A stretch of DNA of 19,743 nt, from the NCBI GenBank assembly GCA_002897695.1, contig BDTG01000031.1:1-19743 (forward strand). Direction: 5' to 3'. Below are positions 426-16,761 of the stretch, piece after piece; the stretch's first letter is position 1; each line of letters starts with the position of its first letter. This DNA is from a bacterium BMS3Abin14. Lineage in GTDB: Bacteria > BMS3Abin14. Under the pieces are notes generated by a model. That model was not told the origin of the DNA, ran no database searches, and saw only the letters and a list, made by a program, of their open reading frames with translations. A program made the translations under genes and the position numbers.

Positions 426-866
426 GTGAAGAGGATTTACGCAAAAGAGGAAGTGTGTATCGGGTGTCGGCTTTGCGAGATTTATTGTCAGGTCGAACAT
501 TCCGGGTCAAAAAATATCATTAAAACTTTCAAGGAGGAGACACCTCCACCGTCGCTAATCATCGTGGAGGAGGTTGGCCCCGTATCCTTTGCCCTTCAGT
601 GCAGGCATTGTGACGAGCCGTATTGTGCCTATTCCTGTATCGCCGGGGCTATTTATCAGGACGAGAGGACCGGCGAGATCATCCACGATCCGGATAAATG
701 CATAGGCTGCTGGACGTGCGTCCTCACCTGCACCAAAGGGGCTATCTGGCCTGATCGCAGGGAAAGGAGCGTGGCCGCCAGGTGCGACCTGTGTCCCGAC
801 AGAGAAATTCCCGCCTGTGTGGAGATGTGCCCCAACGAGGCGCTATATCTGGTTGATGAGGATTGA
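426..866 (+). CDS. Four-cluster [4Fe-4S] polyferredoxin (CooF/HycB-like)
   Basis: A 146-residue electron-transfer protein, cytoplasmic by lack of a signal peptide. Sixteen cysteines form four cluster motifs: C11-x2-C14-x2-C17-x3-C21, C59-x2-C62-x4-C67-x3-C71, C92-x2-C95-x2-C98-x3-C102 and C120-x2-C123-x7-C131-x3-C135. This is the layout of CooF/HycB/DmsB-type proteins. I chose the GTG start at 426 because GGAGG (416-420) sits 5 bases before it; longer in-frame starts at 378 and 393 lack a ribosome site and add an implausible N-terminus. The gene is first in a plus-strand series with an FAD oxidoreductase and the three glutamate synthase proteins, so its likely role is to carry electrons between the flavoprotein and the synthase. 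That partnership is inferred from gene order. Its stop codon lies inside a hairpin repeat. Confidence 0.9.
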   Translation: MKRIYAKEEVCIGCRLCEIYCQVEHSGSKNIIKTFKEETPPPSLIIVEEVGPVSFALQCRHCDEPYCAYSCIAGAIYQDERTGEIIHDPDKCIGCWTCVLTCTKGAIWPDRRERSVAARCDLCPDREIPACVEMCPNEALYLVDED

Positions 867-931
867 TGACTTCGTAAAAAGCCACGAACTTCCCTGTGCG
901 TTGCACGCAGACAGGTGGGCTTTTTACGACC
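862..931. repeat. TGATGACTTCG hairpin repeat (copy 1), overlapping the ferredoxin stop codon
   Basis: Perfect 12-bp inverted arms lie at 872-883 and 918-929 (TCGTAAAAAGCC and its complement). An inner GC-rich hairpin (893-915) is followed within a few bases by five T residues. The element starts with ATTGATGACTTCG (862-874), in which TGA at 864-866 is the ferredoxin stop. The same 13 bases recur at 7518-7530, again on a stop codon. The inner hairpin could act as a partial terminator or mRNA-stability element between the ferredoxin and oxidoreductase cistrons. Confidence 0.7.
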
Positions 932-969
932 ATAACAGGATGTGATATTCGAGAAAAAAAGGAAAATAT

Positions 970-2301
970 ATGGCCGTTAAGAAATACGACTACCTGATAG
1001 TGGGCAACTCAGCCGGCGGGATTGGCTGCGTCGAGGGCATCCGGCGGGAGGACCGTGAAGGAAGTATCGCGATTCTAGCCGACGAAAAATACCACACGTA
1101 TGCGAGACCGCTCATAACGCACCTCCTGGAGGGAGATGTTGATCGAAGGGGGATGGACTATCGCCCCAGGGATTTCTACCGGAAACATTCCGTTGACGCT
1201 TTCCTTGGATACAGGGCCCGCAATCTGGACATGGAAAAAAGGTCCATATCCATTTCCGGCTCCGGAGGGACGAGCTCAGGTGGAAACGGGGATGGAAAGA
1301 GGACCCTGAGATTCGACAAGCTTCTGCTCGCCACCGGAGGGTCGCCTTTTATACCTCCCATGGAGGGGTCAGGCCTGGACGGCGTCACCACCATGATTAC
1401 CCTGGACCAGAGCCTGGAGGTGAAAAAACGGCTTGGAAGGGTGAAAAATGCCGTTGTGCTGGGCGCCGGGCTCATCGGCACAAAGACTGCCGAGGCCCTT
1501 TCACGGGTTATCGATCGTGTCACGGTGGTGGAACTTGCCGACAGGGTTCTTGCCCTCGTTTCCGATGAAACCTCGTCGCGGCTTGCCGCCGATGCCTTTC
1601 GGAAAAAAGGTGTGGAGATTCTTCTGGGCAATTCCATCATCGAGGTCAGAGGGCATGGAAAGGTGGAGGAGGTTCTCCTTCTGGATGGAACCGTCCTTCC
1701 CTGCGATCTCCTGGTAGTCGCCGTGGGTGTAAGGCCCAGGGTCGAACTTGCCGGGGGAACGGATATCCGGGTGGATACCGCCAGGACGGGAGGCGGGTTC
1801 ATGGTGGAGGACAACATGGCCACTAGCATCGAAAATGTTTACGCGTGCGGTGACGCTTCACATGCCCACGATTTTGTGACGGGCGCCCACCGCCTCCTGC
1901 CTCTGTGGCCCAATGCCTACATCGGCGGGCGTATTGCCGGGCTCAATATGGCCGGGGTTCCCAGCCGCCACCGATGGGCCACCAACATGAACTCGGTGGA
2001 TTTTTTCGGGCTTCCTATGGTTTCCGCCGGTTTTATGGAAAAGCCGAACCGTAAGGGGTTCACGGAAATCATAAGGGATGAAAAGGGTAAATACGCCAAG
2101 CTTGTTCTTAAGGACGGTGTCATAAAGGGCATGGTTATGGCTGGGTGCGTCGCCCGTGCCGGTATATACCTTGGGCTGATGAGGAACAAGGTCAAGACAA
2201 CGTCCTTCTCCGATCATCTCCTGTCTCACGATTTCGGGGCCGTTCACCTGCCGGACGAAGTCAAGGAGAAGATGAAACAGCCAATCAGGATTATCGAGTA
2301 G
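970..2301 (+). CDS. FAD-dependent pyridine nucleotide-disulfide family oxidoreductase (probable NAD(P)H-oxidising partner of glutamate synthase)
   Basis: A 443-residue flavoprotein with two Rossmann folds. FAD binding is marked by the N-terminal strand YDYLIVGNSAGG (6-17), the ATGG turn (121-124) and YACGDA (291-296). NAD(P) binding is marked by VVLGAGLIG (162-170). It resembles NADH:rubredoxin/nitrite reductase-type NAD(P)H oxidoreductases. No redox-active CxxC pair follows the first Rossmann motif, so it is not a thioredoxin reductase or a GltD. A Gly/Ser-rich stretch (about 97-110) looks like a loop insertion. The ATG at 970 follows an A/G-rich AAGGAAAA sequence. Its position between a polyferredoxin and the split glutamate synthase suggests that it moves NAD(P)H electrons to the ferredoxin or directly to the synthase. 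I recall a similar arrangement in Thermotoga. The electron donor (NADH or NADPH) cannot be read with confidence. Confidence 0.85.
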   Translation: MAVKKYDYLIVGNSAGGIGCVEGIRREDREGSIAILADEKYHTYARPLITHLLEGDVDRRGMDYRPRDFYRKHSVDAFLGYRARNLDMEKRSISISGSGGTSSGGNGDGKRTLRFDKLLLATGGSPFIPPMEGSGLDGVTTMITLDQSLEVKKRLGRVKNAVVLGAGLIGTKTAEALSRVIDRVTVVELADRVLALVSDETSSRLAADAFRKKGVEILLGNSIIEVRGHGKVEEVLLLDGTVLPCDLLVVAVGVRPRVELAGGTDIRVDTARTGGGFMVEDNMATSIENVYACGDASHAHDFVTGAHRLLPLWPNAYIGGRIAGLNMAGVPSRHRWATNMNSVDFFGLPMVSAGFMEKPNRKGFTEIIRDEKGKYAKLVLKDGVIKGMVMAGCVARAGIYLGLMRNKVKTTSFSDHLLSHDFGAVHLPDEVKEKMKQPIRIIE

Positions 2302-2390
2302 ATCGTGGTGTCAGAGACAGTACCTCATTGGGTCTCAGGTTCCATGCAAACGAGCTTTGACTGCAGAAAAGTGAAACATAGGAAACAGAC
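2302..2390. other. Intercistronic spacer carrying a second GTGTCAGAGACAG copy
   Basis: These 89 bases separate the oxidoreductase from the glutaminase gene. They contain GTGTCAGAGACAG (2308-2320), identical to 185-197. An AGGAAA ribosome-site-like stretch precedes the ATG at 2391. No clear promoter or terminator was seen, so read-through from the oxidoreductase is plausible. Confidence 0.4.
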
Positions 2391-3557
2391 ATGAGAAACC
2401 TTTGCAGTGTCAACAACCCATATAACGACGACAAGGTCATCTCCCAGTGCTCCATCTTCGGGATGATGAATACCTCCGGGAAGCTCATTTCGGGCAAAGA
2501 TTGCATAACGGCCATCACCAACATGCATGAGCGTGGGAACGGGCTCGGGGCCGGGTTTGCCATATACGGTATCTACCCCGATCGGCCCGACGATTATGCT
2601 CTCCACATCATGTTCGAAACCAAGGTCAGCCGCGAGGAAACCGAGACCTATCTAAGGAGGCTCTTCGATATCAGCTTGGCCGAGGAGGTCCCCACCTTTC
2701 CTACGGAAACCATTACCAACCCTCCTTATATCTGGAGGTATTTCGTTCGCCCCAAGCTCAAGGAAACACATGAGATAGTCAATGAGGATGATGTTGTCAC
2801 GCGAAGGGTCTTCAAAATCAACATATCCATTGAAGGCGCTTTCGTTTTTTCCTCGGGCAAGAACATGGGGGTTTTCAAGGGAGTGGGATTCCCTGAGGAT
2901 ATCGCCCTGTTTTTCGGGCTGGAACACTACCATGGTTATATCTGGACGTCCCATGGACGGTTTCCGACCAACACTCAGGGCTGGTGGGGCGGCGCGCACC
3001 CGCTGTCACTGCTGGACTGGACCGTGGTTCACAATGGTGAGATCTCGTCCTACGGCGCCAACCGCAGGTTTCTCGAGATGTACGGCTATGTATGCACCAT
3101 GCAGACGGATACCGAGGTGGTGGCCTACGCTGTGGACCTCCTGGAAAGGAAGCACGGTCTTCCCATCGAGGTGGTAATGGACATCTTTTCGCCGCCGATC
3201 TGGGAGCAGATCGACCGTATGAACTCCAGTGACAGGAAATATTTCGAGGCCATCCGGAATACTTACGGCTCCCTGCTGCTCAACGGGCCCTTCGCCATTA
3301 TCGTGGCCCATCATGGAGAGATGATCGCCCACACCGACCGTATTCGTTTAAGGCCAATGGTTGCCGGGATAAAGGGAGATATCGTATACGCCTCATCCGA
3401 GGAATCGGCTATCCGCCTGGTTTGTCCGGAGCTGGACAAGATATGGATTCCCACCGGCGGGCACCCGGTCATAGCCCGTCTGAAAGGGACCGAAGGACAC
3501 GACGTTGTCGAGGGTGGACGGGAGTTTCTGGGGACGACCGTTATGGAGGTTCAATAG
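2391..3557 (+). CDS. Class II glutamine amidotransferase subunit of split glutamate synthase
   Basis: A 388-residue Ntn-type glutaminase that releases ammonia from glutamine for the synthase subunit. The likely nucleophile is Cys20 in QCSIFG (19-24). It is preceded by 19 residues that must be removed for the usual N-terminal Cys mechanism; glutamate synthases and some PurF proteins also carry a propeptide. Other family marks are HGRFPTN (188-194), HNGE (214-217, oxyanion hole) and TDTE (239-242, glutamine binding). The residue after Cys is Ser rather than the common Gly. The next gene starts immediately after the stop codon, so the two are translationally linked. A related set, the N-methylglutamate synthase subunits (Mgs/Glx), has the same three-part architecture. 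The neighbouring ammonium transporter and dehydrogenase favour true glutamate synthase, but paralogue function cannot be excluded. Confidence 0.9.
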   Translation: MRNLCSVNNPYNDDKVISQCSIFGMMNTSGKLISGKDCITAITNMHERGNGLGAGFAIYGIYPDRPDDYALHIMFETKVSREETETYLRRLFDISLAEEVPTFPTETITNPPYIWRYFVRPKLKETHEIVNEDDVVTRRVFKINISIEGAFVFSSGKNMGVFKGVGFPEDIALFFGLEHYHGYIWTSHGRFPTNTQGWWGGAHPLSLLDWTVVHNGEISSYGANRRFLEMYGYVCTMQTDTEVVAYAVDLLERKHGLPIEVVMDIFSPPIWEQIDRMNSSDRKYFEAIRNTYGSLLLNGPFAIIVAHHGEMIAHTDRIRLRPMVAGIKGDIVYASSEESAIRLVCPELDKIWIPTGGHPVIARLKGTEGHDVVEGGREFLGTTVMEVQ

Positions 3558-5057
3558 ATGCGCAGTGCACTTCTTCCGGAATTTTCCGTTGTAAGGGACG
3601 AGGATCGGTGCATCCAGTGCCGGGTTTGCGAGCGCCAGTGCTCCTTCGGCGTTTTCAGTTACGATGCCTACAACAATCTGATGGTGCACAGGGAGGAGAA
3701 CTGCGTGGCATGCCAGAGATGCTCCGTTCTCTGCCCCACCAACGCTCTGGTTATCAAAAATAACGACTACACCTATCGGCCCAACGCCAACTGGACCCGC
3801 GAGGCCATCCGCGATCTGAAAAAGCAGGCCGAGACGGGAGGTGTGCTTCTCACTGGAATGGGGTGTGACAAACCGCTGAAAAATTACTGGGATCACATCC
3901 TTCTTAACGCTTCCCAGGTGACCAACCCTTCCATCGACCCTCTCCGGGAACCCATGGAGCTGCGCACCCGGCTGGGAAGAAGATCCGACCGGCTTGAGTT
4001 CAGAAATGGGAACCTTGAGGTGCCCGATTATCCGTTTGTGGAGCTTTCCACGCCCATAATGTTCGGGGCCATGTCATACGGCGCCATCAGTTATAACTGC
4101 TTCAAATCCCTCGCTCAGGCCGCCCACGAGGTCGGAACCATGTTTAACACCGGTGAGGGGGGATGGCCCAGGGAACTTCGTAAATTCGGGAAAAACACCA
4201 TAGTCCAATGCGCCTCAGGCCGATTCGGCCTGGATCTGGAGTACTTTAACGACGCGGCCATGGTGGAAATCAAGATCGGCCAGGGAGCGAAGCCCGGCAT
4301 CGGCGGACATCTTCCGGGTGAAAAAGTTTCCGCGCACATCTCGCAGACGAGAATGATCCCCATGGGATCCGACGCCATCAGCCCCGCGCCTCATCACGAC
4401 ATCTACTCCATCGAGGACCTGCAGATGCTCGTCCATGCCCTCAAGGAAGCCACTGATTATGGAAAACCCATATCCGTGAAGATCTCCGCGGTTCACAATG
4501 CGCCGGCCATTGCCAGCGGCATGGTGAGGGCGGGAGCGGACGTCATCGTCGTGGACGGGGTCCGGGGCGGCACCGGCGCAGCCCCAAAAATACTGAGGGA
4601 CAACGTCGGGCTGCCCATAGAACTGGCGTTAGCTGCTGTCGATACCAGGCTGAGAGAGGAGGGGATCCGCAACTGGGCATCCCTCGTGTGTTCCGGAGGC
4701 ATCCGGAACTCGTCCGACATATTCAAGGCCATCGCGCTGGGGGCGGACGCTGTATACATCGGCACTGCGGCTTTAATGTCCATGGGGTGCACCGTCTGTC
4801 AGAAGTGCTACACGGGCAAGTGTGCCTGGGGCATTACCACCCAGGATCCGTATCTTACCAAGAGGGTCAATCCCGAGATCGGCACACAGGCGCTGGTGAA
4901 CCTGCTCCGGGCCTGGAGCCTGGAGATCAAGGAGATGTTGGGCTGTGCGGGGATAAACTCCATCGAATCAGTACGGGGCAATCGTCTCCAGCTAAGGGGG
5001 ATCGGCCTGGAAAGTTGGGAACTCGATGTGCTGGGAATAAGGGGCGCCGGCCTATGA
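3558..5057 (+). CDS. gltB: Archaeal-type glutamate synthase, FMN/3Fe-4S synthase subunit with N-terminal 2[4Fe-4S] ferredoxin domain
   Basis: A 499-residue protein that forms glutamate from 2-oxoglutarate and ammonia on FMN. Residues 18-28 and 49-59 each hold a C-x2-C-x2-C-x3-C motif (a bacterial-type two-cluster ferredoxin domain). The FMN barrel follows, with FGAMSYGAIS (169-178), the GEGG loop (199-202), KIGQGAKPGIGG (239-250) and the phosphate-binding segment around VCSGGIR (377-383). Cys411, Cys417 and Cys422 match the C-x5-C-x4-C spacing of the glutamate synthase 3Fe-4S cluster, and there is an extra Cys414. It lacks the glutaminase and GXGXG domains, which the flanking genes encode. 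The ATG abuts the upstream TAG and has GGAGG (3545-3549) 8 bases before it. The stop overlaps the next start (ATGA). The ferredoxin domain distinguishes it from MgsC/GlxD-type relatives and suggests reduction through the upstream polyferredoxin. Confidence 0.93.
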   Translation: MRSALLPEFSVVRDEDRCIQCRVCERQCSFGVFSYDAYNNLMVHREENCVACQRCSVLCPTNALVIKNNDYTYRPNANWTREAIRDLKKQAETGGVLLTGMGCDKPLKNYWDHILLNASQVTNPSIDPLREPMELRTRLGRRSDRLEFRNGNLEVPDYPFVELSTPIMFGAMSYGAISYNCFKSLAQAAHEVGTMFNTGEGGWPRELRKFGKNTIVQCASGRFGLDLEYFNDAAMVEIKIGQGAKPGIGGHLPGEKVSAHISQTRMIPMGSDAISPAPHHDIYSIEDLQMLVHALKEATDYGKPISVKISAVHNAPAIASGMVRAGADVIVVDGVRGGTGAAPKILRDNVGLPIELALAAVDTRLREEGIRNWASLVCSGGIRNSSDIFKAIALGADAVYIGTAALMSMGCTVCQKCYTGKCAWGITTQDPYLTKRVNPEIGTQALVNLLRAWSLEIKEMLGCAGINSIESVRGNRLQLRGIGLESWELDVLGIRGAGL

Positions 5058-5905
5058 ACCCCATTGCGATAACCGTAAAAACAGAAGAGCCTGTGGCATC
5101 CGCCGAAAGGAAGAAGAAAGGCATCACCTATTCCCCATCGAAGTGGTATCAGATCGATGCCGCCGGCGTTCATTACAAGGATCTGAACAGAAAGATACGG
5201 GCCATGGCAGAGAAAGGGGCCAGGAAATTCGAGATTCGCAACGTCTACGGCCAACGGTACATTGGAACCAACCTGTGGGGCATTGAAAGGGATAAAATAA
5301 AGATAAGGATCCACGGTACGCCCGGATCGGATCTCGGCGCCCTGCTCGACGGGCCAAGCATTGATGTGTTCGGAAACGCCCAGGATGCCACCGGCAACAC
5401 CATGAACGGGGGGAAGATCATTATCCACGGGTCGGCCGGGGATGTTCTCGGCTACAGCATGAGGGGCGGGGAGATCTACGTCAGGGGGAACGTGGGATAC
5501 CGGGTTGGGATCCACATGAAGGAGTATGAGGCGAAGGTCCCCACCGTGGTCATTGGCGGTACCGTCCAGGATTTCTTCGGGGAGTACATGGCCGGGGGAC
5601 GGATTATCGTTCTTAACAAGTTTTTCGAGGATAATCCTCCGCTGCGCCTCTCCTATTTCATCGGCACCGGGATGCACGGCGGCACCATATATCTGAGGGG
5701 AGAGGTGGAGATCAACCAGGTCGGCGCCGAGGTGGGAATTACCGAACCTGCAGACGACGAGTGGAGAATTATCGAGAGGTATGTCCACAGATACTGCAAG
5801 GCCTTCGGGTTCGAAGCGAAGCAGGCGAAGCTTCTCAAAAGGGAAAAATTCATCAAGCTTTACGCCAAATCGTCCAGGCCGTACGGGATGTTGTACGCAT
5901 ACTGA
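5054..5905 (+). CDS. GXGXG (beta-helix) subunit of split glutamate synthase
   Basis: A 283-residue protein matching the C-terminal alpha-subunit domain of glutamate synthase, a right-handed beta-helix. In the large enzyme this domain is structural and holds the glutaminase and synthase parts in register around the ammonia tunnel. Repeating turns of the form G-x-x-x-G-x-x-M-x-G-G-x-I are visible (for example NTMNGGKIIIHG, YSMRGGEIYVRG and EYMAGGRIIV). The ATG overlaps the gltB stop by ATGA, so the pair is translationally coupled. A longer in-frame extension inside gltB was rejected because it has no homology-like content. The first 30 residues are Lys/Glu-rich and may be disordered. The same fold occurs in formylmethanofuran dehydrogenase subunit C, but the operon context settles the assignment. 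Confidence 0.9.
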   Translation: MNPIAITVKTEEPVASAERKKKGITYSPSKWYQIDAAGVHYKDLNRKIRAMAEKGARKFEIRNVYGQRYIGTNLWGIERDKIKIRIHGTPGSDLGALLDGPSIDVFGNAQDATGNTMNGGKIIIHGSAGDVLGYSMRGGEIYVRGNVGYRVGIHMKEYEAKVPTVVIGGTVQDFFGEYMAGGRIIVLNKFFEDNPPLRLSYFIGTGMHGGTIYLRGEVEINQVGAEVGITEPADDEWRIIERYVHRYCKAFGFEAKQAKLLKREKFIKLYAKSSRPYGMLYAY

Positions 5906-5959
5906 TCAGTTCTTCAACAGGGCCCTCCGCGATAAAATCTTCCAGTGTCTAAAAAATAG

Positions 5960-6000
5960 GCATATTTTGGAGCTGATGTCTAAAAAACATGCTTTTATTT
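5960..6000 (+). terminator. Weak terminator-like hairpin after the glutamate synthase operon
   Basis: Arms GCATATTTT (5960-5968) and AAAACATGC (5984-5992) pair 8 of 9, with a 15-base loop and a following TTTTATTT. The stem is AT-rich and therefore weak. The right arm overlaps the second TGTCTAAAAAA repeat, so the same bases may instead serve as an activator site. Confidence 0.3.
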
Positions 6001-6116
6001 CCCCTCCCGTAATTCTTCCGGAACACCAGATATAATAGAAATAATATTATTCTTTGATAACAGTCGGTTAAGAAAATATCCTGACGTTGTTTCTACGCTC
6101 CTGCATGTAATCTTTC

Positions 6117-6132
6117 TGGCACATACCCTGCA
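6117..6132 (+). promoter_or_regulatory. Sigma-54 (-24/-12) promoter of amtB
   Basis: The sequence TGGCACATACCCTGCA matches the RpoN consensus TGGCACG-N4-TTGCW at all but two specified positions. The invariant GG (6118-6119) and GC (6130-6131) have the correct 10-base spacing. Transcription should begin near 6143, about 70 bases before the amtB start at 6212. RpoN control fits a nitrogen-limitation-induced ammonium transporter and implies an NtrC-type activator encoded elsewhere. Confidence 0.8.
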
Positions 6133-6211
6133 AACCCCAAGTGGATTGACGACCCTGCCCCTCCCGTCCACGCTTTTGCGGTATTGCTGTCATTCAACAG
6201 GAGCTGCCTCG

Positions 6212-7522
6212 ATGAAAGATTCCGGACACAATTTATCACGTATCATGCTTTTCATTTTTACGACTGCGTTCCTTTCCCTCATTTCAAGCCCGGCATTTGC
6301 CGGCGCCCTTGATTCAGGGGACACGGCGTGGGTTCTGACATCCACTGCCCTGGTCCTGTTCATGACCATCCCGGGGCTTTCCCTCTTCTACGGTGGGTTG
6401 GTTCGCACAAAGAACGTACTGTCGGTCCTGATGCAATGCTTTGCCATTACCTGCGTGGTTACGGTGTTGTGGGTCATCGGAGGTTACAGCATTGCCTTCA
6501 GCGCCAACGGTTCACCGATCCTTAACGGGTGGTTCGGCGGCTTGTCAAAAGGATTCCTCCTGCATGTGGGAAGGGATTCCATGATCGGCGGGATACCCGA
6601 GACCGTTTTCGTCATGTTCCAGCTCACCTTCGCAATAATAACCCCGGCGCTCATCATCGGTTCTTTTGCCGAGAGGATGAGATTCTCCGCCATGCTCCTT
6701 TTTTCGGCCATCTGGTCCATCGTGGTCTATGCGCCCGTGGCCCATTGGGTCTGGGGTGGGGGATGGCTTCAGAGTATGGGAGTTATGGATTTTGCGGGCG
6801 GAATAGTTGTTCACATCAATGCCGGCGTGGCGGGTCTGGTCACTGCTCTTTACCTCGGTAAACGCAAGGGATACCCAAAGATTCCCATGCCGCCGCACAG
6901 CCTCACTCTTTCCGTGGTGGGTGCGGGAATGCTGTGGGTAGGGTGGTTCGGCTTTAATGGGGGAAGCGCTCTGGCCGCCGATACTACTGCCGGCATGGCC
7001 ATCCTGGTTACCCAGATTTCCTCCGCCACGGCAGCGTGTGCATGGATGCTTGTGGAATGGATCAGGTACGGCAAGCCCAGTGTCCTGGGGATCATTACGG
7101 GAGCGGTCGCCGGCCTGGCGACCATCACCCCGGCTTCCGGTTTTGTTGGTCCCGGGGGAGCCATCATCATTGGCGCAATCGCGGGAGTGGCATGTTTCTT
7201 CACCGCCACGAGCATCAAAAGGGCTTTTGGATATGACGATTCTCTCGATGCCTTCGGCGTCCATGGCGTCGGAGGTTACATCGGGTCCATCCTCACCGGT
7301 GTTTTCGGGGCCTCCGTCCTCGGGGGCAGCATGGCACTGAACATCGGCAGGCAGGTGGGTGTTCAGATCCTGGCCGCAGTTGCGGTTACCGTCTACTGCG
7401 CTGTTTTATCCTGGATCATTCTTAAGGTCGTGGACAGCCTGATCCATGTCCGGGTAGAAAATGACGACGAGCTTATGGGACTTGACCTTACCGATCACAA
7501 CGAGAAGGGATACGATTATTGA
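6212..7522 (+). CDS. amtB: Ammonium transporter (Amt/MEP/Rh family)
   Basis: A 436-residue inner-membrane ammonium channel. A cleavable signal peptide is predicted (residues 1-30, ending AFA), as in E. coli AmtB, followed by about eleven membrane segments. The pore twin histidines are H201 in DFAGGIVVHINAG (193-205) and H351 in DAFGVHGVGG (346-355). D193 belongs to the family signature. I chose the ATG at 6212 because AGGAG (6199-6203) lies 8 bases upstream and the signal peptide then begins properly; a longer frame from 6146 would start only a few bases after the predicted transcription start. The sigma-54 promoter upstream suggests induction under nitrogen limitation. A glnK gene, the usual partner that plugs AmtB, is absent on both sides. 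The stop codon is embedded in a hairpin repeat shared with the ferredoxin gene. Confidence 0.95.
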   Translation: MKDSGHNLSRIMLFIFTTAFLSLISSPAFAGALDSGDTAWVLTSTALVLFMTIPGLSLFYGGLVRTKNVLSVLMQCFAITCVVTVLWVIGGYSIAFSANGSPILNGWFGGLSKGFLLHVGRDSMIGGIPETVFVMFQLTFAIITPALIIGSFAERMRFSAMLLFSAIWSIVVYAPVAHWVWGGGWLQSMGVMDFAGGIVVHINAGVAGLVTALYLGKRKGYPKIPMPPHSLTLSVVGAGMLWVGWFGFNGGSALAADTTAGMAILVTQISSATAACAWMLVEWIRYGKPSVLGIITGAVAGLATITPASGFVGPGGAIIIGAIAGVACFFTATSIKRAFGYDDSLDAFGVHGVGGYIGSILTGVFGASVLGGSMALNIGRQVGVQILAAVAVTVYCAVLSWIILKVVDSLIHVRVENDDELMGLDLTDHNEKGYDY

Positions 7523-7595: not shown

Positions 7596-10500
7596 TCACG
7601 GCCTGGTGCGGCCATCGAACACCCGTTTAAGATGCCCCTTGATCATCTCCTCAAAATCCGAATCCCGGTTGCTTCGGTAGGTGAGGGATGAGGCGATTTC
7701 GCTGGCGAGGATGGCGGACCGGTATTTTCCGGGAAGCTTGTTGATCCTCGCGTGGTACTTCCGGTTTTCCCTCAGGAACCGGGGAAGATGGCTGAAGAGG
7801 GCCATGCGAAAGAGCCGGGTCGCGGCCAGCTGTGGATGGTCCTGCAGGTAGCCGAAGAGCCTGGCGTAATGATCGTTGATCTCGACGCTGATGGCGTCCG
7901 ATATTTCAGTGAAAAGATGCTTTCCATTTGATTCTCTGAACCGGGCCAGGATCAGGTATGCCTCATCCGCGGCCCGCTTCTCCAGGATCTCTATTACGTC
8001 CGAAACATAACGTTCCTTGTTGGCCAGAAATTCCTTTTCGCCCATTATGAGGTTGGCGATGACCTCGTAGGAGGATGAGATGACGCCGCACTTGTTAGCG
8101 GACGCGTCCCGCATGATTACGATCCCCCTTTTCTGAAGTTGAACGCGTGCGTCCGGGGTAATAAATGAGTTGGCGCCCTCCACGATGGCACGCAGAGTAG
8201 GTTCACTGCCTTCAGGGAAAAATTTCTGCCAGTTCCCATCATGGACTGTTTCTGGCCGCCCGCCGGCTGGGATGAACAGGTCGGCATGGACCTCAAATAT
8301 AAGGTTATCGTATTCTCTGTGGAAATCGTCGGTCGACAGCCACTGTTCCACAAGCTCACCGGTTTGGGATCTGGAGACCTTTCGATAGAGGGTTTTCAGT
8401 CCCTCCACCCGTGGATTGGACCTGAAGATGAGAAACCCTCCTTTATGAAGCTTTGACGGCCTGAAGGCGTCAATATCGCCTTTAAACAGGATCCTTTTCA
8501 GTTCCGACCGGCTCCCCCCGTCGGGGTCAAAGAGGGCGCCTGTCCCGTCGAGGATGAGGTTGATCTTCACCCTGGGGCATTTTTCAAAGAGAATCCTGAT
8601 GGCGTTTCCCGCCACGTCACCGTCGGGGCCACCCGTGAACTTGACCGAGAAGGCATCCTTTCCCATATCAATTCCAAGGTCCTCCATAGTTATCTCGGCG
8701 AACTTCACCACACCCGTGGAGGTCACCCCGTACTCCTTGTGGTTGATACCGTTCTTCTTGCTGGAGATGATCCCATCCCCCAGCATGTATCCGCGCCTCA
8801 CCGAGAGCCTGGCGATGGTTTCGATCATGGAGTCGTGCATGTTCTCATCGGGTCCCAGCTCGATGGGTTCATCCTCCCCATAGTAGTCAACGACCCGTGG
8901 GTTGCTGACCTTGCCGTCCTCGGTGATAAAAATGTCAAGGAAAGCGTTGATGAACCCGTACTGCAGTTTGTACATACGCTGGGTAACGAAATCGGCTTCC
9001 TCCAGACCGGAAGCGTCCAGTACCACGACCATCTTGGAACCACCCTCGTAGATATCCTTGTTCTTCAGGTGCTGTGTGTGGGCCAGTACGAAAACCTCGC
9101 GGAATAACGTATCGGCGTTGGTATCGTAGTCATCCCGGTTGCCGGTGATGATCGTCCGCCAACCGCCCCTTGCGATATCTGAAAAACCGATATGGTAGCC
9201 AATCCCGAAACGGCCGAAGAAGAATGTGATTCTGAAGGGGGTTTTGGGGGGCAGGTCGGCGGTGAAAACGGGGTCCAGGCTGGAAAGGTATTTCGGGTCC
9301 AGGCGGAACGCCAGGGCCTGTTTGCCGAGGACGAAGAAATTGGTCTTCAATGTGTGGCGGATGAAGTCAATGCAGCATTTGAAAATGCTCCTTCGGAATT
9401 CGTCCAGGTACCTGTGACCTGTGTTGTGGCCTTCAACGGATTCCTCGGTCCTCCTCAGGACATTCTCATATTGTGTCTTCCGCCCGGAGATCCCAGGGGA
9501 GAACCGTGTCCTGAACAGGTCCACCAGCTGCAGGGAAATGTTGGGGTTGGAGTGGAAGGCCAGCTTGACGTCGTCGAGGTGGTAGCTTTCCTGCCGGTTG
9601 TGGGCGAGGTTTGTATGGCAAAAGGCGATAAAGGCGTTGATAAGGGAGGCATCCTCCCCGGACATGATGTCCCTGGCCATAAAATGCTGGTAGGTGTAGG
9701 AATTGGTTGAGAGGATCTGGGTATTATAAAGCTCGTTGCGCAGTCGTTCAAACAGTTCCGTGCCTTTGGTGACCGCCCGGGTTTCCCTGGCCCGGGCGTA
9801 AAAGGTCCCCAGGAAATAGGGATGAACGCCGTTGCTGATGTTGAGGCAGTAGGTGCGCTGGATGCCGATGCCCAGGCGGTTGAAGGCCTCCATGATCTGC
9901 AGCAGAAAACCCTTCTGTGGAGGGTTGCCGGCGGCGAACAGGACCCTGTATCCTTCCGTTTCATCCGGTTCCTTTGTCTCTTCGACGTCCAGGAAGACCC
10001 CGCCCTTTGCATTACCCTGGTAGAAGAGCCATAGGAGCTGAGCGACCCTCCTGGGAGGTGAGATGCGCACGTAGTTCCGGTTATTCAGCCAGATGATCTT
10101 CAGGTAGCGGTCAAAACGGTCGAAATCAAAGGCCGGGTAGTGCTCCCTGAGGGCATCGAGGATCTTTACCCCGATGCCGCGGGGGACGGAAACCCCCGCT
10201 GTCCCGGCGATAGTCCGGTGGTCCTTGCGGTCGAACTCGTAGCGCTGGATCTCCAGGGAATGTTCAAGACCGGGAATGGGGCCGAGGGAGTGGATGATCT
10301 CCGTATAGGTGATCTCCCTGTCATGGAGGGTTCGAAGCGTCCCGTAGAGGGAACCCGGTACATTCCGGCAGGCCAGGATCAGGGCTTTTTCCCTGTCCGC
10401 CAGGATGAGTCTGTGGTTTGCGGCGAGGGTGTCAAGCTGCATGGCGAGGGTGGTGAGCGCATCGATTTCCTCCTTCATTGTGATGAAGAAGTAGGGGTGC

Positions 10501-10604
10501 ATCTGCTCTTCAAGCCACTGGAGGTTTTCCTTGCCATGCTGGTGAAAAACCCCGATCCGGTTCCGGATATCGGTCAGGAGACGACGTTCAGGTTTTCCAT
10601 GCAT
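7596..10604 (-). CDS. gdh: Large NAD-specific glutamate dehydrogenase (about 115-kDa class)
   Basis: A 1002-residue enzyme that oxidatively deaminates glutamate to 2-oxoglutarate and ammonium with NAD. The N-terminal 400 residues are the poorly conserved regulatory portion. The catalytic core holds ARGGWR (478-483), GGSKMVVVLD (521-530, likely catalytic Lys524 region), YGVTSTGV (625-632) and the dinucleotide-binding GGPDGDVAGN (658-667), followed by LDGTGALFDPDGG. Its length matches the fungal Gdh2-like 115-kDa class rather than the 180-kDa (about 1600-residue) bacterial enzymes or the 450-residue hexameric type. The ATG at 10604 has AGGGGGG (complement of 10612-10618) 7 bases upstream. It converges on amtB, and the arn cluster follows its 5' end in the same orientation, separated by heptamer arrays. 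Its usual catabolic direction opposes the glutamate synthase nearby. Confidence 0.93.
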   Translation of the reverse strand: MHGKPERRLLTDIRNRIGVFHQHGKENLQWLEEQMHPYFFITMKEEIDALTTLAMQLDTLAANHRLILADREKALILACRNVPGSLYGTLRTLHDREITYTEIIHSLGPIPGLEHSLEIQRYEFDRKDHRTIAGTAGVSVPRGIGVKILDALREHYPAFDFDRFDRYLKIIWLNNRNYVRISPPRRVAQLLWLFYQGNAKGGVFLDVEETKEPDETEGYRVLFAAGNPPQKGFLLQIMEAFNRLGIGIQRTYCLNISNGVHPYFLGTFYARARETRAVTKGTELFERLRNELYNTQILSTNSYTYQHFMARDIMSGEDASLINAFIAFCHTNLAHNRQESYHLDDVKLAFHSNPNISLQLVDLFRTRFSPGISGRKTQYENVLRRTEESVEGHNTGHRYLDEFRRSIFKCCIDFIRHTLKTNFFVLGKQALAFRLDPKYLSSLDPVFTADLPPKTPFRITFFFGRFGIGYHIGFSDIARGGWRTIITGNRDDYDTNADTLFREVFVLAHTQHLKNKDIYEGGSKMVVVLDASGLEEADFVTQRMYKLQYGFINAFLDIFITEDGKVSNPRVVDYYGEDEPIELGPDENMHDSMIETIARLSVRRGYMLGDGIISSKKNGINHKEYGVTSTGVVKFAEITMEDLGIDMGKDAFSVKFTGGPDGDVAGNAIRILFEKCPRVKINLILDGTGALFDPDGGSRSELKRILFKGDIDAFRPSKLHKGGFLIFRSNPRVEGLKTLYRKVSRSQTGELVEQWLSTDDFHREYDNLIFEVHADLFIPAGGRPETVHDGNWQKFFPEGSEPTLRAIVEGANSFITPDARVQLQKRGIVIMRDASANKCGVISSSYEVIANLIMGEKEFLANKERYVSDVIEILEKRAADEAYLILARFRESNGKHLFTEISDAISVEINDHYARLFGYLQDHPQLAATRLFRMALFSHLPRFLRENRKYHARINKLPGKYRSAILASEIASSLTYRSNRDSDFEEMIKGHLKRVFDGRTRP

Positions 10605-10696: not shown

Positions 10697-12352
10697 TCAA
10701 AACCTCGCGAAGACGAACTTTCCATACTCATCCTTAAAGACGGGTTCCGGGAGCCGATCCTTGTACGCCTCATAACGCTTCCTGTGAATTATGAGGATCA
10801 ATTTTCCACTTCCAGCCATCTTCTTCGCCATTTTGCTGAATTTGTCAATATTCAGAAGCCGCCCCTTCGAGTCATCGTAGGTGAGGCCGTAGGTAAATTC
10901 TCCTCCCACCTCAAGCAGGTAGACGTCCGATCGTCCGTACAACCAGCAAACGGCAGGCGCCAGATAGTTGTCCGACACGAGGACAGAGTCTGTGGAAATC
11001 CGGCTCGCATAGGACCTGATGAAGGGGCCGGGATTTTTCCTTCCCATGGATTGATAGGGTATGGCGAAGTGGAGAACAAAAAGAAAAAGCAATGGCGCAG
11101 CCGCAAAGATCGTAATCTTCCGGACCGGGTTTTCCGCCCGCGAGGCGAACCATGCGGCCAGGCCGAATGAGATGAATCCGGTCGTCCCGAGGGCCCATTT
11201 CAGGGTTTCGTTCTGTGCGTATATCCTGTCGCCGCCGGGGAAAAAAAGATGGGCCGCCAGGAGAATGGCGCCCACCAGACCCGCTGATGCGGCCAGTATC
11301 CTGGCCCCCAGGTTAAAACATTTTCTTCCATTTTTCCGGAAGTATCCCGCAAGCCCAAAGGCCATCAGGATAGCAAGAGGCGGGAAGCACGGGAGGATGT
11401 ATGTGCCCAGTTTGCCGTTGGAGGCAGTGAAAAAGAGGAACGGGAAGATCAGCCAGCATATGGCGAACCGCACAAGGGGGTCACCGGGTTTTTGAGGGAG
11501 TTTTTTAAATGTCGAGCCGACCACGGCCGCCGGGACGAGAACCGACCAGGGCAGCGCGCCGCCCGCTATTACCGGAACAAAATACCAGAACGGCTTGGGG
11601 TGCTGTGGATGATGGGAGAGAAACCTCTGGATGTGCTCAACCCAGAAAAAATAGCGCCAGAAATCACCTTCCCGGAGATGGATCATTATGGACCAGGGCA
11701 GGGCGACGAGAAGCGCGGCGATTGCGGGGATCCACGGGACGGTGAAAAGCCTTCTCCACTGGCCCTCCCATATCATGAACGGTACGATTGCAACCACCGG
11801 GACGGCAAAGGCCAGAAACCCCTTCGTCAGAAATGCCAGTCCGCAGAAAACGCCGAAGAGTGCGAGGAACACGGCCCTTCGGGTGGGGTGTTCCTCCACG
11901 TGGGACAGGAAAAAAAGGACCATACCCGCGGTCAGGAACATGGAAAGAAGGCTGTCGGGAGAGTTGTATACCCCGGCGGCGTAGACCCCCATGGAAGTCA
12001 GGTAGATCACGGAGGAAAGGGTTCCCTTCCAGGGATCCCCGGACACACGGGAGACAAGCAGGTAGATGAAGAGGGCCGCGAGGGCGACCGCAAGGGCGGA
12101 TGGGAGCCTGAGGGCGAACCGGTTCTCACCGATCAGAGATGTTGAAAAAGCGGTAATCCAGTAGCTGAGAACGGGTTTTTCAAAGTAGCGGATGCCGTCC
12201 AGGCGGGGAACCGTCCAGTCCCCGGTTGCAAGCATTTCCCTGGGGATCTCGGCATACCTGGTCTCGTCGGGGATGACGAATGGCCTGACACCCAGGGGGA
12301 CAACGTAAATGAGCAGAAAAAGAGCAATTATTATCCAGGCTTGCTTCTTCAT
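10697..12352 (-). CDS. arnT: Undecaprenyl phosphate-L-Ara4N:lipid A 4-amino-4-deoxy-L-arabinosyltransferase
   Basis: A 551-residue polytopic inner-membrane GT-C glycosyltransferase that moves L-Ara4N from its undecaprenyl carrier to lipid A phosphates on the periplasmic face, lowering surface negative charge. The first periplasmic loop IPDETRYAEIPREML (27-41) and RYFEKP (55-60) are close to E. coli ArnT. Asp29, Glu58/Lys59 and Asp133 (NSPDSLL) are acidic or basic residues at positions expected to bind substrate or metal; this mapping is from memory. About a dozen hydrophobic segments are followed by a periplasmic C-terminal domain (about 440-551). Length equals the family norm (about 550). 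The start overlaps the arnD stop by ATGA, so it is last in a coupled arnA-D-T run. No typical T-tract hairpin follows, only heptamer arrays. Confidence 0.95.
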   Translation of the reverse strand: MKKQAWIIIALFLLIYVVPLGVRPFVIPDETRYAEIPREMLATGDWTVPRLDGIRYFEKPVLSYWITAFSTSLIGENRFALRLPSALAVALAALFIYLLVSRVSGDPWKGTLSSVIYLTSMGVYAAGVYNSPDSLLSMFLTAGMVLFFLSHVEEHPTRRAVFLALFGVFCGLAFLTKGFLAFAVPVVAIVPFMIWEGQWRRLFTVPWIPAIAALLVALPWSIMIHLREGDFWRYFFWVEHIQRFLSHHPQHPKPFWYFVPVIAGGALPWSVLVPAAVVGSTFKKLPQKPGDPLVRFAICWLIFPFLFFTASNGKLGTYILPCFPPLAILMAFGLAGYFRKNGRKCFNLGARILAASAGLVGAILLAAHLFFPGGDRIYAQNETLKWALGTTGFISFGLAAWFASRAENPVRKITIFAAAPLLFLFVLHFAIPYQSMGRKNPGPFIRSYASRISTDSVLVSDNYLAPAVCWLYGRSDVYLLEVGGEFTYGLTYDDSKGRLLNIDKFSKMAKKMAGSGKLILIIHRKRYEAYKDRLPEPVFKDEYGKFVFARF

Positions 12353-13263
12353 GGCCTGATTTCTTCGTCAACGGCGACTGACGGGCCCTGCAGGGAGACC
12401 CATCCATCCCTGCCGGGAACATGACCGGGGATGAGCGGCGCCGCAGGCAGGGAGGTTGACCCTTCGAGGAAGGACCCCAGGGTGCAGAAGGCCATCCCGG
12501 ATGAACGGGCGGTGGAGAGGAAACGGTCGAACATCCCGAGACGGGAGATCCCTTCGACCTCAGCATGAACGGTCAGGACGTTGAGCCCGGCCGGGTCCAG
12601 GAGTGAGAGCATATACTCATTGTAGTTTTCGTCGGAGATCCCGGAGTTGCCGATGACCTCGTCGTAGGTGGGAAGGGTAACAGGAACCTGGGGTTGTCGC
12701 AGGGTTCTGCCGCCTACAATGGGAAGAAATACGTGATCACCCCTGCAGTCACTGTTGTAGACAAAGGGAAACCGGTCCTTTTCCGTGAGGGCCGGGTCAC
12801 TGGATTTCCAGGCCGGCGCCGCGGAACAGTCCGGTGGGCGCCCCAGTATCCGGGAGAGGAGGTCGACCCCCATTGTCAGGGAACGATGGATGTCGTTACC
12901 GTCCATAGTGTCTATGCGTGTCTGCCAGTGATGGTGGTCCCATGCGTGAAGGCCGATCTCGTGACCCGCGTCTGCCGTATCCTGGATAACGCCGGCGAGC
13001 TTCTCTCCGATAACAGGCCCGGGCCGGAATGTCCCTTTCAGGAGAATATCCCATCCGTAGAGGCCGACGGCCCTGGTTCGCAGCATTTTCCAGAGAAAGG
13101 ACGGGCGCAGAAGACGGCGCAGGTGACGGCCCATGTTGTCGGGGCCGACCGTAAAAAAAAAGGAGGCGGTGATTCCCTGCCGGGCCAGGAGTTTACAAAT
13201 CGCCGGTACTCCCAGGCGTGTTCCCCTGAAGGTGTCGACGTCAACCCTGAGGCCGATCCTCAT
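12349..13263 (-). CDS. arnD: 4-deoxy-4-formamido-L-arabinose-phosphoundecaprenol deformylase
   Basis: A 304-residue polysaccharide deacetylase-family (NodB-like) enzyme that removes the formyl group from undecaprenyl-phosphate-L-Ara4FN, making the pathway irreversible. Residues near-identical to E. coli ArnD include GLRVDVDTFRGTR (4-16), FFTVGPDNMGRHL (36-48), GLHAWDHHHW (104-113), YNSDCRG, QVPVTLPTYDEVIG and TVHAEVEG. Asp8/Asp10 and His106/His110 are the expected metal and catalytic positions. I placed the start at ATG 13263 because the homologous protein begins right there. An in-frame GTG at 13302, 8 bases after the arnA stop, would add 13 residues (METQEANRQDDRH), and neither start has a convincing ribosome site. 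The C-terminal extension after about residue 260 is variable. The stop overlaps the arnT start. Confidence 0.93.
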   Translation of the reverse strand: MRIGLRVDVDTFRGTRLGVPAICKLLARQGITASFFFTVGPDNMGRHLRRLLRPSFLWKMLRTRAVGLYGWDILLKGTFRPGPVIGEKLAGVIQDTADAGHEIGLHAWDHHHWQTRIDTMDGNDIHRSLTMGVDLLSRILGRPPDCSAAPAWKSSDPALTEKDRFPFVYNSDCRGDHVFLPIVGGRTLRQPQVPVTLPTYDEVIGNSGISDENYNEYMLSLLDPAGLNVLTVHAEVEGISRLGMFDRFLSTARSSGMAFCTLGSFLEGSTSLPAAPLIPGHVPGRDGWVSLQGPSVAVDEEIRP

Positions 13264-13310
13264 GTGCCGGTCGTCTTGCCGGTTGGCCTCCTGTGTTTCC
13301 ACCGGCCGCG

Positions 13311-15299
13311 CTAGCCGCTTTGCGCTTCGGCGACCTGGGTCAGGAAGAAATCCAGGGTTTCCTCAACGGACTGTCGGATTCCGACGGTGGGCGACCAGTC
13401 CAGGAGCCTCTTCGCGTTGCGTATGGACGGTTTCCGGTGCTCTACGTCCTGATATCCAGGACCGTAGAAGGCCCGGCTCTCCAGCTCCTGATAGCCGGCG
13501 AATGGCGGAAAATGGGAACGCATGGGATGTTTTTCGAATGCTTCGACGAGCATCTCGGCCAGTTCCCTGATGCTCGCTTCGTTGTCGGGATTGCCGATGT
13601 TGATGATCTTTCCGTCGCAGCGCCCGTCCCTGTTCTCGATCATCCTGAAGAGGCATTCGATGCCGTCCGATACGTCGGTGAAGCACCGTTTCTGATCTCC
13701 CCCGTCAACCAGCTGGATGGGCGTTCCCTCCACCAGGTTGAGGATCAGCTGGGTTATGGCCCGTGAGCTTCCAATACGGGCGGAGGCCAGGCTGTCGAGC
13801 CGGGGCCCGATCCAGTTGAAAGGCCTGAACAGACTGAATGAAAGCCCCCTCTGCTGCCCGTAGGCCCAGATAACACGGTCCAGGAGCTGTTTGCTGCACG
13901 AATAGATCCATCGCTGCATCCGAATGGGCCCGGTAATGAGCCTGGAGTTGTCCTCGTCGAACGAATCGTCCTCGCACATGCCGTAGACCTCGGAGGTGGA
14001 AGGGAAGAGGATCCTTTTGCCGTACTTCACGCAGTAGCGTACGATCCGCAAATTCTCCTCGAAATCAAGCTCGAACACACGCAGGGGGTTCCGGGTATAT
14101 TCGATGGGAGTGGCGATAGCGACAAGAGGCAGGACGATGTCGCATTTTCTGATGTGGTACTCGATCCATTCCCTGTGGATGGAGATGTCTCCTTCCGAAA
14201 AGTGAAAATCCGGCCTGTCCAGCAGCCGCTGGATGTACTTTGCGTGAAGGTCCATGCCATGGACCTCGTAGCGGCCGCTCTCGAGCAATCTCTCGCCAAG
14301 GGCGTTTCCGATAAAGCCGTCCGTACCCAGGATAAGGACCCTTTTCTTCCTGGAGGCTTCCACCCTTATTTTCGCGCTGGAGCCGAAGGACATTCCGATG
14401 GTGAGATACATCTCCCGGGCAAGCTGGGGGCCGGTCATGTACACGCCGCCTTCCTCCTGTCCGAAGTCAACGCGCACGGTTCCCTTTCCGCAGGCGACGA
14501 CAAGGGGGTCGGTGGAGACGACGGTTCCAGCGGCCCTGTCGCCGGCGTTCCCGTTTGTTTCTGTAACAGTCCAGAAAAAGCATTTTCTGTCACCGGCGAA
14601 TGAAAATGCCCCCGGGTATGGTCTGGTAACCGCCCTGACAAGGTTGCGAACGGCCACGGCGTCCAGGCTCCAGTTGATCTCGCCGTCCTCGGGGCGGCGC
14701 CCACCGAAGGAGGTCGCCTTTTCATGGTCCTGCGGGGTGCCCGAGGCCGTGCCGTCCTTGATCGCAGGCAGAACATCATCGAGCATGGCCGCCGCGGCGG
14801 CGGCCGCTTTCCCGTGCAGGGTCAGAGCTGTATCGTCGTTGTCGATCCGGATCTTCTGCCGGGCCACAATATTCCCTTCGTCGGGCCGTGCTGTCATGTA
14901 GTGGAGGGTGACGCCCGTTTCCTTCTCTCCGTTCACCAGCGCCCAGTTGATGGGAACCCGGCCCCTGTATTTAGGGAGGAGGGACCCGTGGAGGTTGAGG
15001 CAGCCCGACGGGGGGATGGCGAGGATTTCCGGTCCGACGATGTTCCGGTAGTAGAATGAGAAGATTATATCCGGCGCCAGTTCCCGGATTCTTTCGATCC
15101 AGAGGGGATGGTTGATGTCATCAGGGGCGTAGACCGGGATGTCCGTGGAGGCTGCCAGTTCCGCCACCGATCTGAACCAGATCGTCTCTTCGGGGTTGTC
15201 CCGGTGCGTGAAAACGGCCTGGATGGAAATGCCGTTGCGCAGCAGCGCTTCCACGCCCGTGCAGCCAATGTTGTGGTATCCGAGAACGACAGCCTTCAT
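13311..15299 (-). CDS. arnA: Bifunctional UDP-4-amino-4-deoxy-L-arabinose formyltransferase / UDP-glucuronate decarboxylating dehydrogenase
   Basis: A 662-residue cytoplasmic enzyme with both ArnA domains intact. The N-terminal formyltransferase (1-about 305) has the triad Asn102, His104 ([14 protein letters not shown]) and Asp140 (ARPDEG), the same numbering as E. coli. The C-terminal dehydrogenase (about 318-660) has the NAD-binding GTDGFIG (325-331), SE in STSEVYG (436-437), Tyr466/Lys470 in RWIYSCSK and Arg622 in EHRKPSIRN. It oxidatively decarboxylates UDP-GlcA and formylates UDP-L-Ara4N. The C-terminal half looks strikingly close to the enterobacterial sequence. An Ala-rich run (165-171) is a local oddity. 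The ATG has GGAGG (complement of 15306-15310) 6 bases upstream. Its 5' side faces a 490-bp repeat island that separates it from arnC, so it may need its own promoter. Confidence 0.97.
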
Positions 15300-15322
15300 T
15301 GTTTACCTCCGATATTAAAGAC

Positions 15323-15350
15323 AGTCCAGAGTCCAGGGTCCAGAGTCCAA
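15323..15350. repeat. Heptamer array AGTCCAG x4 upstream of arnA
   Basis: Units AGTCCAG, AGTCCAG, GGTCCAG, AGTCCAA follow one another with exact 7-bp phase. On the arnA strand they read as CTGGACT-type units ending 23 bases before the start codon, the same orientation and nearly the same distance as the array before gdh. Confidence 0.85.
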
Positions 15351-15424
15351 CGGGCGCGGTCAGGATATGGGTAACACTTTTAGCCTGTCATCGCGAACTT
15401 CTTATAATCCATCTTCGACAATCT

Positions 15425-15447
15425 TCCTCCCCCTTGAGGGGGGAGGA
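15425..15447. repeat. C5/G5 palindrome (copy B)
   Basis: CCCCCTTGAGGGGGG core flanked by TCCT/AGGA, followed by a G-rich tail (GAGGTGGGGC, 15451-15460). It shares core and tail with copy C about 65 bases downstream, and its core matches copy A at 230-245. Confidence 0.65.
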
Positions 15448-15489
15448 TAAGAGGTGGGGCACCAAATGGCGGCCTATCACTATATTCTT

Positions 15490-15510
15490 CTTCCCCCTCG
15501 AGGGGGGAAG
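15490..15510. repeat. C5/G5 palindrome (copy C)
   Basis: CTTCCCCCTCGAGGGGGG followed by AAG forms a stem of about 10 bp with almost no loop. The tail GAGATGGGGGTG (15514-15525) parallels the tail of copy B. Two similar copies within 90 bases indicate a REP-like element inserted or duplicated locally. Confidence 0.65.
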
Positions 15511-15621
15511 ACTGAGATGGGGGTGAAACCGGGCGGAAGCGATCCCGTGGTGGCCGTAGGGCACCGTTAAGACCTTTTCAGCTTCCGTCTTCGTTCTTCG
15601 AACTTTGCCGCGACAGGCCGC

Positions 15622-15665
15622 ACGAGATTGCCGCGATCACGCCGTTGGCGTGACTCGCAATGACA
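15622..15665 (-). repeat. GTCATTGCGAG...GCAATCTCG dispersed repeat
   Basis: On the minus strand this begins TGTCATTGCGAG and ends GCAATCTCGTG. An inner perfect hairpin TCACGCC-GTT-GGCGTGA lies at 15637-15653. I recall this end-pair as a common intergenic repeat in many Gram-negative genomes. Partial copies of the GTCATCGCGA end occur at 15387-15396 and 17978-17989. Confidence 0.6.
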
Positions 15666-15753
15666 GGAACGGTGCTTCGCCTCCGATGTTTGCCTTATCC
15701 CCCCCATCCCCTTCATCCCTGTGAAATCAAGCCTTTGCATCTGGTTTTCCCCT

Positions 15754-15774
15754 CTGGACACTGGACTCTGGACT
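15754..15774. repeat. Inverted heptamer array CTGGACW x3 downstream of arnC
   Basis: CTGGACA, CTGGACT, CTGGACT in exact 7-bp phase, 15 bases beyond the arnC stop. The unit is the reverse complement of the AGTCCAG unit at 15323-15350, so the repeat island is bounded by inverted arrays. Confidence 0.8.
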
Positions 15775-15789
15775 GCTCTACGGGTCCTT

Positions 15790-16761
15790 TCACCCCTCCC
15801 TGTCCCTTACGACCACCTTCTCCACGAAATACCGGGGACGGGCCCGGACGTCCGAGTAGATACGACCGATATACTCTCCCAGCAGCCCCATCCCGATAAA
15901 TTGCGCTCCTATGAAGATGAAAAGGAGCGCGAACAGGGTAAAGACGCCGCCCACCGCCCACTCGGAGCCGTAAAGAAGCCGCATCACGAGGAGGAAGAGG
16001 CCGAACCCCATCCCCAGCATGGAAATGATCCCCCCGAGTATACTGAGGAGCCGGAGGGGGAAGGTGGTCATGCTGGTCAACAGGTCAAACTGCAGGCTCA
16101 CGAGCCTCCAGAAGCTGTATTTCGAGTCGCCTGCCGACCGGCTTTCATGGACGACCGGGACCTCCGTGGTCAGACGGGCGAAGGTGTTGGCAAGGATGGG
16201 GATGAACGTGCTGCGTTCCGTGCAAAGCAGCATGGCGTCCACTATGTGGCGCCGGTAGGCCCGAAGCATGCACCCGTAGTCGTGCATGTCCACACCCGTG
16301 GACACGCGGACGACCCTGTTCACCATGAAAGAGGCGGCCTTCCTGAAGAGGGTGTCCTTGCGATTTATCCTTACGGTGCCGACGACGTCGAACCCTTCGT
16401 CCATTTTCGCGACGAGTTTGGGAATCTCCTCGGGTGGGTTCTGAAGGTCGGCGTCGAGAGTGACAATGATCTCTCCACGGGATTTTTCCAGCCCCGCCAT
16501 CACCGCCGCGTGCTGACCGTAGTTCCTGTTCAGAAGAACCCCGACCACCTCCCCGTGGGTGTCCATCTCTCCCTGGGTGTCCCGGGCGGCCCTGGTTATG
16601 ATGTCCCGGGATGAATCCATGCTGCCGTCGTCCACCAGGATGATCTCGAAAGGCTTTCCAATGCCCCGGCAGGCTTCCAGACAGCGCCGGACAAGTTCAT
16701 CAAGGTTGTCCTCCTCGTTGAACACAGGGATGACGATGGAGATGGCAATGGCGTTATCCAT
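15790..16761 (-). CDS. arnC: Undecaprenyl-phosphate 4-deoxy-4-formamido-L-arabinose transferase
   Basis: A 323-residue GT2 family glycosyltransferase that moves L-Ara4FN from UDP to undecaprenyl phosphate on the cytoplasmic face of the inner membrane. The N-terminal GT-A domain shows [11 protein letters not shown] (10-20), VDDGSMDSS (43-51), [13 protein letters not shown] (78-90) and the metal-binding DAD (103-105) in [14 protein letters not shown]. Two membrane segments follow (about 236-262 and 271-295) and then the ArnC-like tail [21 protein letters not shown]. Length and motifs match E. coli ArnC (322 residues). The start overlaps the arnB end by 8 bases, with GAGGA about 6 bases upstream, so it is translationally coupled to arnB. 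Downstream, the operon order is broken only by the repeat island before arnA. Confidence 0.96.

Follow-up and report, generated by a model that had tools for sequence, protein, structure and literature searches.

The window (the whole 19,743-nucleotide stretch of DNA analysed) begins with five intact, consecutive open reading frames on the + strand, which form a tight operon at 426-5905. Assigning the domains of all five proteins with Pfam bore out the original prediction of a five-gene split set, in which the glutaminase, the FMN-binding synthase and the GXGXG domain of a glutamate synthase (GltS) are separate proteins (GATase_2, Glu_synthase and GXGXG on three reading frames). The features are listed here with the ammonium transporter gene, which lies about 300 bases 3' of the GXGXG gene on the same strand.

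426..866, + strand: polyferredoxin subunit with four 4Fe-4S motifs, HycB/DmsB/AorA-like (146 aa; Fer4_11, E 7e-16)
869..930, no strand: inverted repeat in the gap between genes 1 and 2 (fold z -3.0)
970..2301, + strand: FAD/NAD(H) oxidoreductase subunit, AorC/PadH/FNOR-like (443 aa; Pyr_redox_2, E 5e-50)
2391..3557, + strand: glutaminase subunit, a class II amidotransferase, GltS domain 1 (GATase_2, E 1e-11)
3558..5057, + strand: FMN/synthase subunit with an N-terminal 2[4Fe-4S] domain (Glu_synthase, E 3e-137; Fer4_7, E 1.5e-7)
5054..5905, + strand: GXGXG (beta-helix) subunit (GXGXG, E 1e-35)
6203..7522, + strand: ammonium transporter, Amt (TIGR00836, above cut-off)

The ferredoxin gene starts with GTG and has GGAGG upstream. 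The stop of the glutaminase gene and the start of the FMN-subunit gene meet without a gap at 3557/3558 and the start of the GXGXG gene overlaps the stop of the FMN-subunit gene (ATGA, 5054-5057), so that these three genes are almost certainly co-translated. The inverted repeat at 869-930 is a dispersed repeat of the genome, since the pattern of its 15-base arm has 26 near copies compared with one for the reversed control, and it is probably not part of the function of the enzyme.

The core subunits and the iron-sulphur motif beside the FMN

The likely nucleophile of the glutaminase, judged from the alignment, is Cys20, which is present in at least 90% of the aligned relatives and sits behind a short propeptide that would be cleaved off. 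On the FMN subunit the additional 2[4Fe-4S] domain that had been predicted is borne out by the Fer4 match and by two N-terminal CxxCxxCxxxC groups, C18/21/24/28 and C49/52/55/59, which are invariant in 16 sequences. The best profile matches of this subunit in the PDB are 2vdc, 1ea0, 7mfm and 1llw (E about 1e-80 to 1e-76), with no chain of a split-type GltS among them. Its structure model is poor (pLDDT 67) and too weak for judging the geometry of the clusters.

The arrangement is that of the archaeal-type split GltS, in which class II glutaminase, FMN/synthase and GXGXG proteins are encoded by separate reading frames in one cluster and the 2[4Fe-4S] domain is fused N-terminally to the FMN domain; both features are found here, and the same three core proteins share around 40-70% identity with distant bacterial and archaeal relatives. 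A review records reading frames in archaea that each encode a single GltS domain (PMC8097209), Ignicoccus has been described as having a fused/split variant (PMC2614490) and the Geoglobus genome paper also lists a split form. In the passages on split GltS in PMC8097209 and PMC2614490 a ferredoxin and FAD module does not form part of the description. The enzyme shares its chemistry and the domains of the large subunit with the bacterial NADPH-GltS (GltB and GltD), but here the large subunit is split in three, two 4Fe-4S clusters are on the FMN protein, and the place of GltD, made of Fer4_20 and an adrenodoxin-reductase-like FAD domain, is taken by a ferredoxin and a flavoprotein that belongs to a different class. 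The FMN synthase fold is also common to the ferredoxin-dependent GltS of cyanobacteria and plants, of which 1ofe is the best fold match, whereas the enzyme here is split, has the extra Fe-S domain and is accompanied by an NAD-type flavoprotein.

Beside the FMN, the classic GltS carries a [3Fe-4S] cluster whose ligands are the three cysteines of a Cx5Cx4C motif. In the window the corresponding motif is C411-x2-C414-x2-C417-x4-C422, in which the classic positions are joined by a fourth cysteine, and all four are invariant. The fourth cysteine is present in 108 of the 109 split FMN proteins with a readable motif (111 distinct proteins were examined), the single exception having isoleucine at this position. 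That exception is probably the protein of locus L152, which has neither a glutaminase nor a GXGXG neighbour. Six full-length GltB reading frames, read in the same way, have methionine or leucine at the position of the extra cysteine in five cases and cysteine in one (L030). Four cysteines in the Cx2Cx2Cx4C spacing make a [4Fe-4S] cluster possible and, from the motif, the split GltS may hold such a cluster at this site. As to the single 3Fe-4S cluster of the original prediction, the Cx5Cx4C positions are there, but the fourth cysteine makes the 3Fe-4S count doubtful. The four-cysteine motif opens a long-assumed cofactor to direct testing. A divergent stand-alone FMN subunit is seen in L152 (genome G084) and in genome G354.

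The ferredoxin and flavoprotein, and the search for GltD

In the genome (2.28 Mb, rated 100% complete) GXGXG and genuine Glu_synthase each occur at a single place, in both cases within this operon, which encodes its only GltS; there is also one glutamine synthetase. A genome-wide search for a full-length GltB (about 1500 aa) with a separate gltD found none, and there is no GltD with Fer4_20 next to a GltB in the genome, the Fer4_20 places lying elsewhere, in a 474-aa reading frame adjoining an NfnA-like one and in a 647-aa reading frame of another kind. The normal GltB/GltD enzyme that would have spoken against a ferredoxin and flavoprotein in place of GltD is therefore missing, and the original prediction stands on this point. 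The sole full-type GltD-like reading frame comes second in an nfnAB-like pair (named by gene order and sequence recognition, rather than by family search). This putative NfnB was considered as the GltD of the enzyme and rejected, as it directly follows the NfnA-like gene (L037:5025-5855 then 3588-5012, minus strand). A second Glu_synthase match, at C43 (20.4 bits), covers only positions 210-305 of a 498-aa reading frame, presumably IMP dehydrogenase-like and not a GltS. The sampled relatives of the host jump from the same family to the same domain, as if it belonged to a deep lineage that the sample represents by one family only.

The ferredoxin subunit has 16 cysteines, invariant in 16 sequences, which together with the Fer4_11 match agree with the four-cluster polyferredoxin that had been proposed. 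It is related to HycB3/4 (HycB4, 7qv7) and to AorA (8c0z_C), and in NCBIfam it matches AegA and HydN best, PadI being one of those that follow. The flavoprotein, described in the original prediction as an FAD/NAD(P)H oxidoreductase without a CxxC pair, matches Pyr_redox_2 and has only four cysteines (20, 245, 293 and 393), of which none is paired as CxxC and none is conserved throughout; with no cysteines of the disulfide type it would be an electron transferase and not a disulfide reductase. The second strand of the NAD-Rossmann fold ends in Glu188, which is invariant in 18 GltS-linked sequences. An acidic residue at this position is typical of NAD(H) binding and usually selects NADH over NADPH, and NADH would accordingly be the preferred nucleotide here. 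The best sequence match of the flavoprotein in the PDB is AorC (8c0z_E, E 1e-42), which is also among the top three fold matches of its model (TM 0.84; model pLDDT 89). Its best NCBIfam match is PadH (NF045765), at 257 bits compared with a curated cut-off of 475, so that it is related to PadH without being a member of that family.

Adjacent pairs of a four-4Fe-4S ferredoxin and a Pyr_redox_2 FAD/NAD protein, such as the pair found here, are known as AorA/AorC (8c0z), PadI/PadH and CooF/FNOR, though here the catalytic partner is GltS. In the structure of the Aromatoleum aldehyde oxidoreductase (AOR), an enzyme that reduces NAD, AorA carries four 4Fe-4S clusters, with 9.5 A between FS4 and the AorC FAD (PMC10413684), and the pair named CooF and FNOR adjoins CO dehydrogenase (CODH; PMC4703632, PMC6344411). 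Among the sampled loci, related pairs adjoin CODH (L136, L140, L141), aldehyde oxidoreductase (L142) and, by sequence recognition, probable molybdopterin genes (L132, L133). The occurrence of like pairs beside CODH and aldehyde oxidoreductase identifies the pair as a general adaptor rather than one specific to GltS. The GltS-linked members are clustered on the flavoprotein tree with no strict clade (4 changes compared with 8.7 when shuffled). The original prediction would have been refuted if the pair lay beside unrelated partners in relatives; a pair of that kind does adjoin CODH and aldehyde oxidoreductase genes, which goes partly against the prediction, but the pair is also conserved beside GltS.

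Distribution and neighbours of the split core

An alignment search of named genomes with the FMN subunit gave at least 589 relatives, of which the best 80 were examined. All five families are present in 56 of these 80 loci, a fraction biased by their being the nearest matches. The co-occurrence on which the original prediction was to be checked is thus found, in the order of the window (Fd-FAD-GAT-FMN-GXG) in 27 of the 80 loci and as GAT-FMN-Fd-FAD-GXG in another 27, and 17 of the 80 have an Amt-like gene nearby. The hosts of the five families range from relatives of Desulfotomaculum to archaea and include Desulfofundulus, Desulfovirgula, Thermoanaerobacter, Dehalococcoidia, Archaeoglobus and Bathyarchaeota. 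A Thermotogae MAG (L110) carries the five-gene form, and we take TM0394-TM0398 of Thermotoga maritima to be such a cluster. The ferredoxin and flavoprotein genes of several Dehalococcoidia are not adjacent but have other DNA between them. Recurrence in dozens of loci across phyla means that the arrangement is not due to chance.

In a broader sample the split FMN subunit occurs in 58 of 386 genomes, and 34 of these 58 also carry the flavoprotein no more than 8 kb away. By a count made by eye, in which G354 was assumed to resemble its relative G084, the remaining 24 divide into ten with a CCG protein instead, four without a visible module and about ten on short or broken contigs. With so wide a spread, the idea that the complex is rare in bacteria is not supported. 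A paper, structure or assay of the five-gene GltS was not found in the literature searched, which lay mostly outside the subscription journals.

The CCG protein, which is HdrB/C-like with two CCG domains and a 4Fe-4S motif, lies directly upstream of the glutaminase gene in 11 loci (L046, L048, L127, L144-L148, L153, L154 and L156), and consists of two separate parts in L147 and L153. None of the 11 carries the flavoprotein, and a search for the CCG protein and the FAD module together found no case in 111 loci. The CCG-type loci share one region of the FMN tree (16 rows, support 93, with a few rows otherwise labelled; 3 changes of label compared with 10.7 when shuffled), and over most of the remaining tree the form with the flavoprotein is found. 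A third arrangement is seen in two Methanothrix loci (L061, L063), in which a formate-dehydrogenase-like molybdopterin subunit and a polyferredoxin lie 3' of the core (L061:9356-11759), which suggests a formate-linked variant of GltS. Taken together, the gene neighbourhoods suggest that the three-gene core takes exchangeable input subunits. A wider reading is that the split core is a general acceptor of electrons with interchangeable input modules, namely ferredoxin and FAD protein (NADH), HdrB/C-like CCG protein, or formate-dehydrogenase-like subunit with ferredoxin, and that its inner cluster is [4Fe-4S] and not [3Fe-4S]; this combination we put forward only tentatively. In the CCG-type locus L148 a second reading frame (4618-6210, - strand; 530 aa) with a partial Glu_synthase match lies between the FMN and GXGXG genes.

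Electron supply to the enzyme

It would seem likely that the operon encodes an archaeal-type split GltS with a dedicated module for NADH input. The glutaminase would split glutamine to give ammonia, the remaining parts of the classic large subunit would be represented by the GXGXG and FMN subunits, and at the FMN 2-oxoglutarate and ammonia would be reduced to glutamate. Electrons would pass from NADH to the FAD, through the four 4Fe-4S clusters of the ferredoxin and the two of the FMN subunit to the inner Fe-S centre, and from there to the FMN. The five proteins are presumed to form a complex, though adjacency alone is no proof of physical coupling, because like pairs serve other enzymes.

The same observation raises the question of whether the pair works for some other enzyme and is merely co-located with GltS, as related pairs adjoin CODH, aldehyde oxidoreductase and molybdopterin genes. 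We consider this improbable: no such catalytic gene adjoins the operon within the window, the five genes stay together across phyla although their order takes two different forms, and the presence of the FAD protein with GltS groups strongly on the FMN tree (14 changes compared with 30.6 when shuffled). A more serious, if still unlikely, alternative is a ferredoxin-dependent GltS, in which the core takes its electrons straight from reduced cellular ferredoxin and the FAD subunit acts as an exit or balancing valve, from ferredoxin to NAD+, or in which there are two inputs, as the original prediction proposed. Core-only and differently partnered loci exist, so that the core is reducible without the FAD subunit, and the many clusters of low-potential type would be expected to take electrons from ferredoxin. 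Against this, the FAD subunit accompanies the core in 74 of the 93 FMN-tree rows with readable flanks, as expected of the main input, and in AOR, the structural relative, a like pair couples to NAD (PMC10413684).

Flavin-based bifurcation or confurcation, with the FAD splitting electrons between ferredoxin and the GltS core, appears very improbable. The relatives are of anaerobic type and bifurcation by the FAD of FNOR has been speculated upon for the CODH version (PMC4703632), but the flavoprotein is in the NADH oxidase/ferredoxin reductase class and not in the NfnB/GltD-like class found elsewhere in the genome, and it has no sequence feature pointing to a second acceptor. NADH, entering through the FAD subunit, thus remains the most likely electron donor, and the operon is best seen as a member of a known, widespread and biochemically neglected family that is most likely NADH-linked.

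GltS is one of the main routes by which nitrogen enters biomass when ammonium is low, and the split form is common in anaerobes. Settling which donor supplies its electrons would put annotations and metabolic models right. What is of interest is the inner motif with its four cysteines and the apparent exchange of input modules, rather than this particular locus.

Convergent with the Amt gene is a gene for a 1002-aa NAD-glutamate dehydrogenase-like protein (7596-10604, - strand; Bac_GDH_CD), which may counterbalance GltS. The rest of the window contains a gene cluster like that of the Arn (lipid A aminoarabinose) pathway (10697-17923, - strand), with genes for a PMT-type transferase, a polysaccharide deacetylase, a formyltransferase-epimerase fusion, a glycosyltransferase 2 and a DegT aminotransferase, and a gene for a Wzi-like capsule assembly outer membrane protein (18262-19653, + strand).
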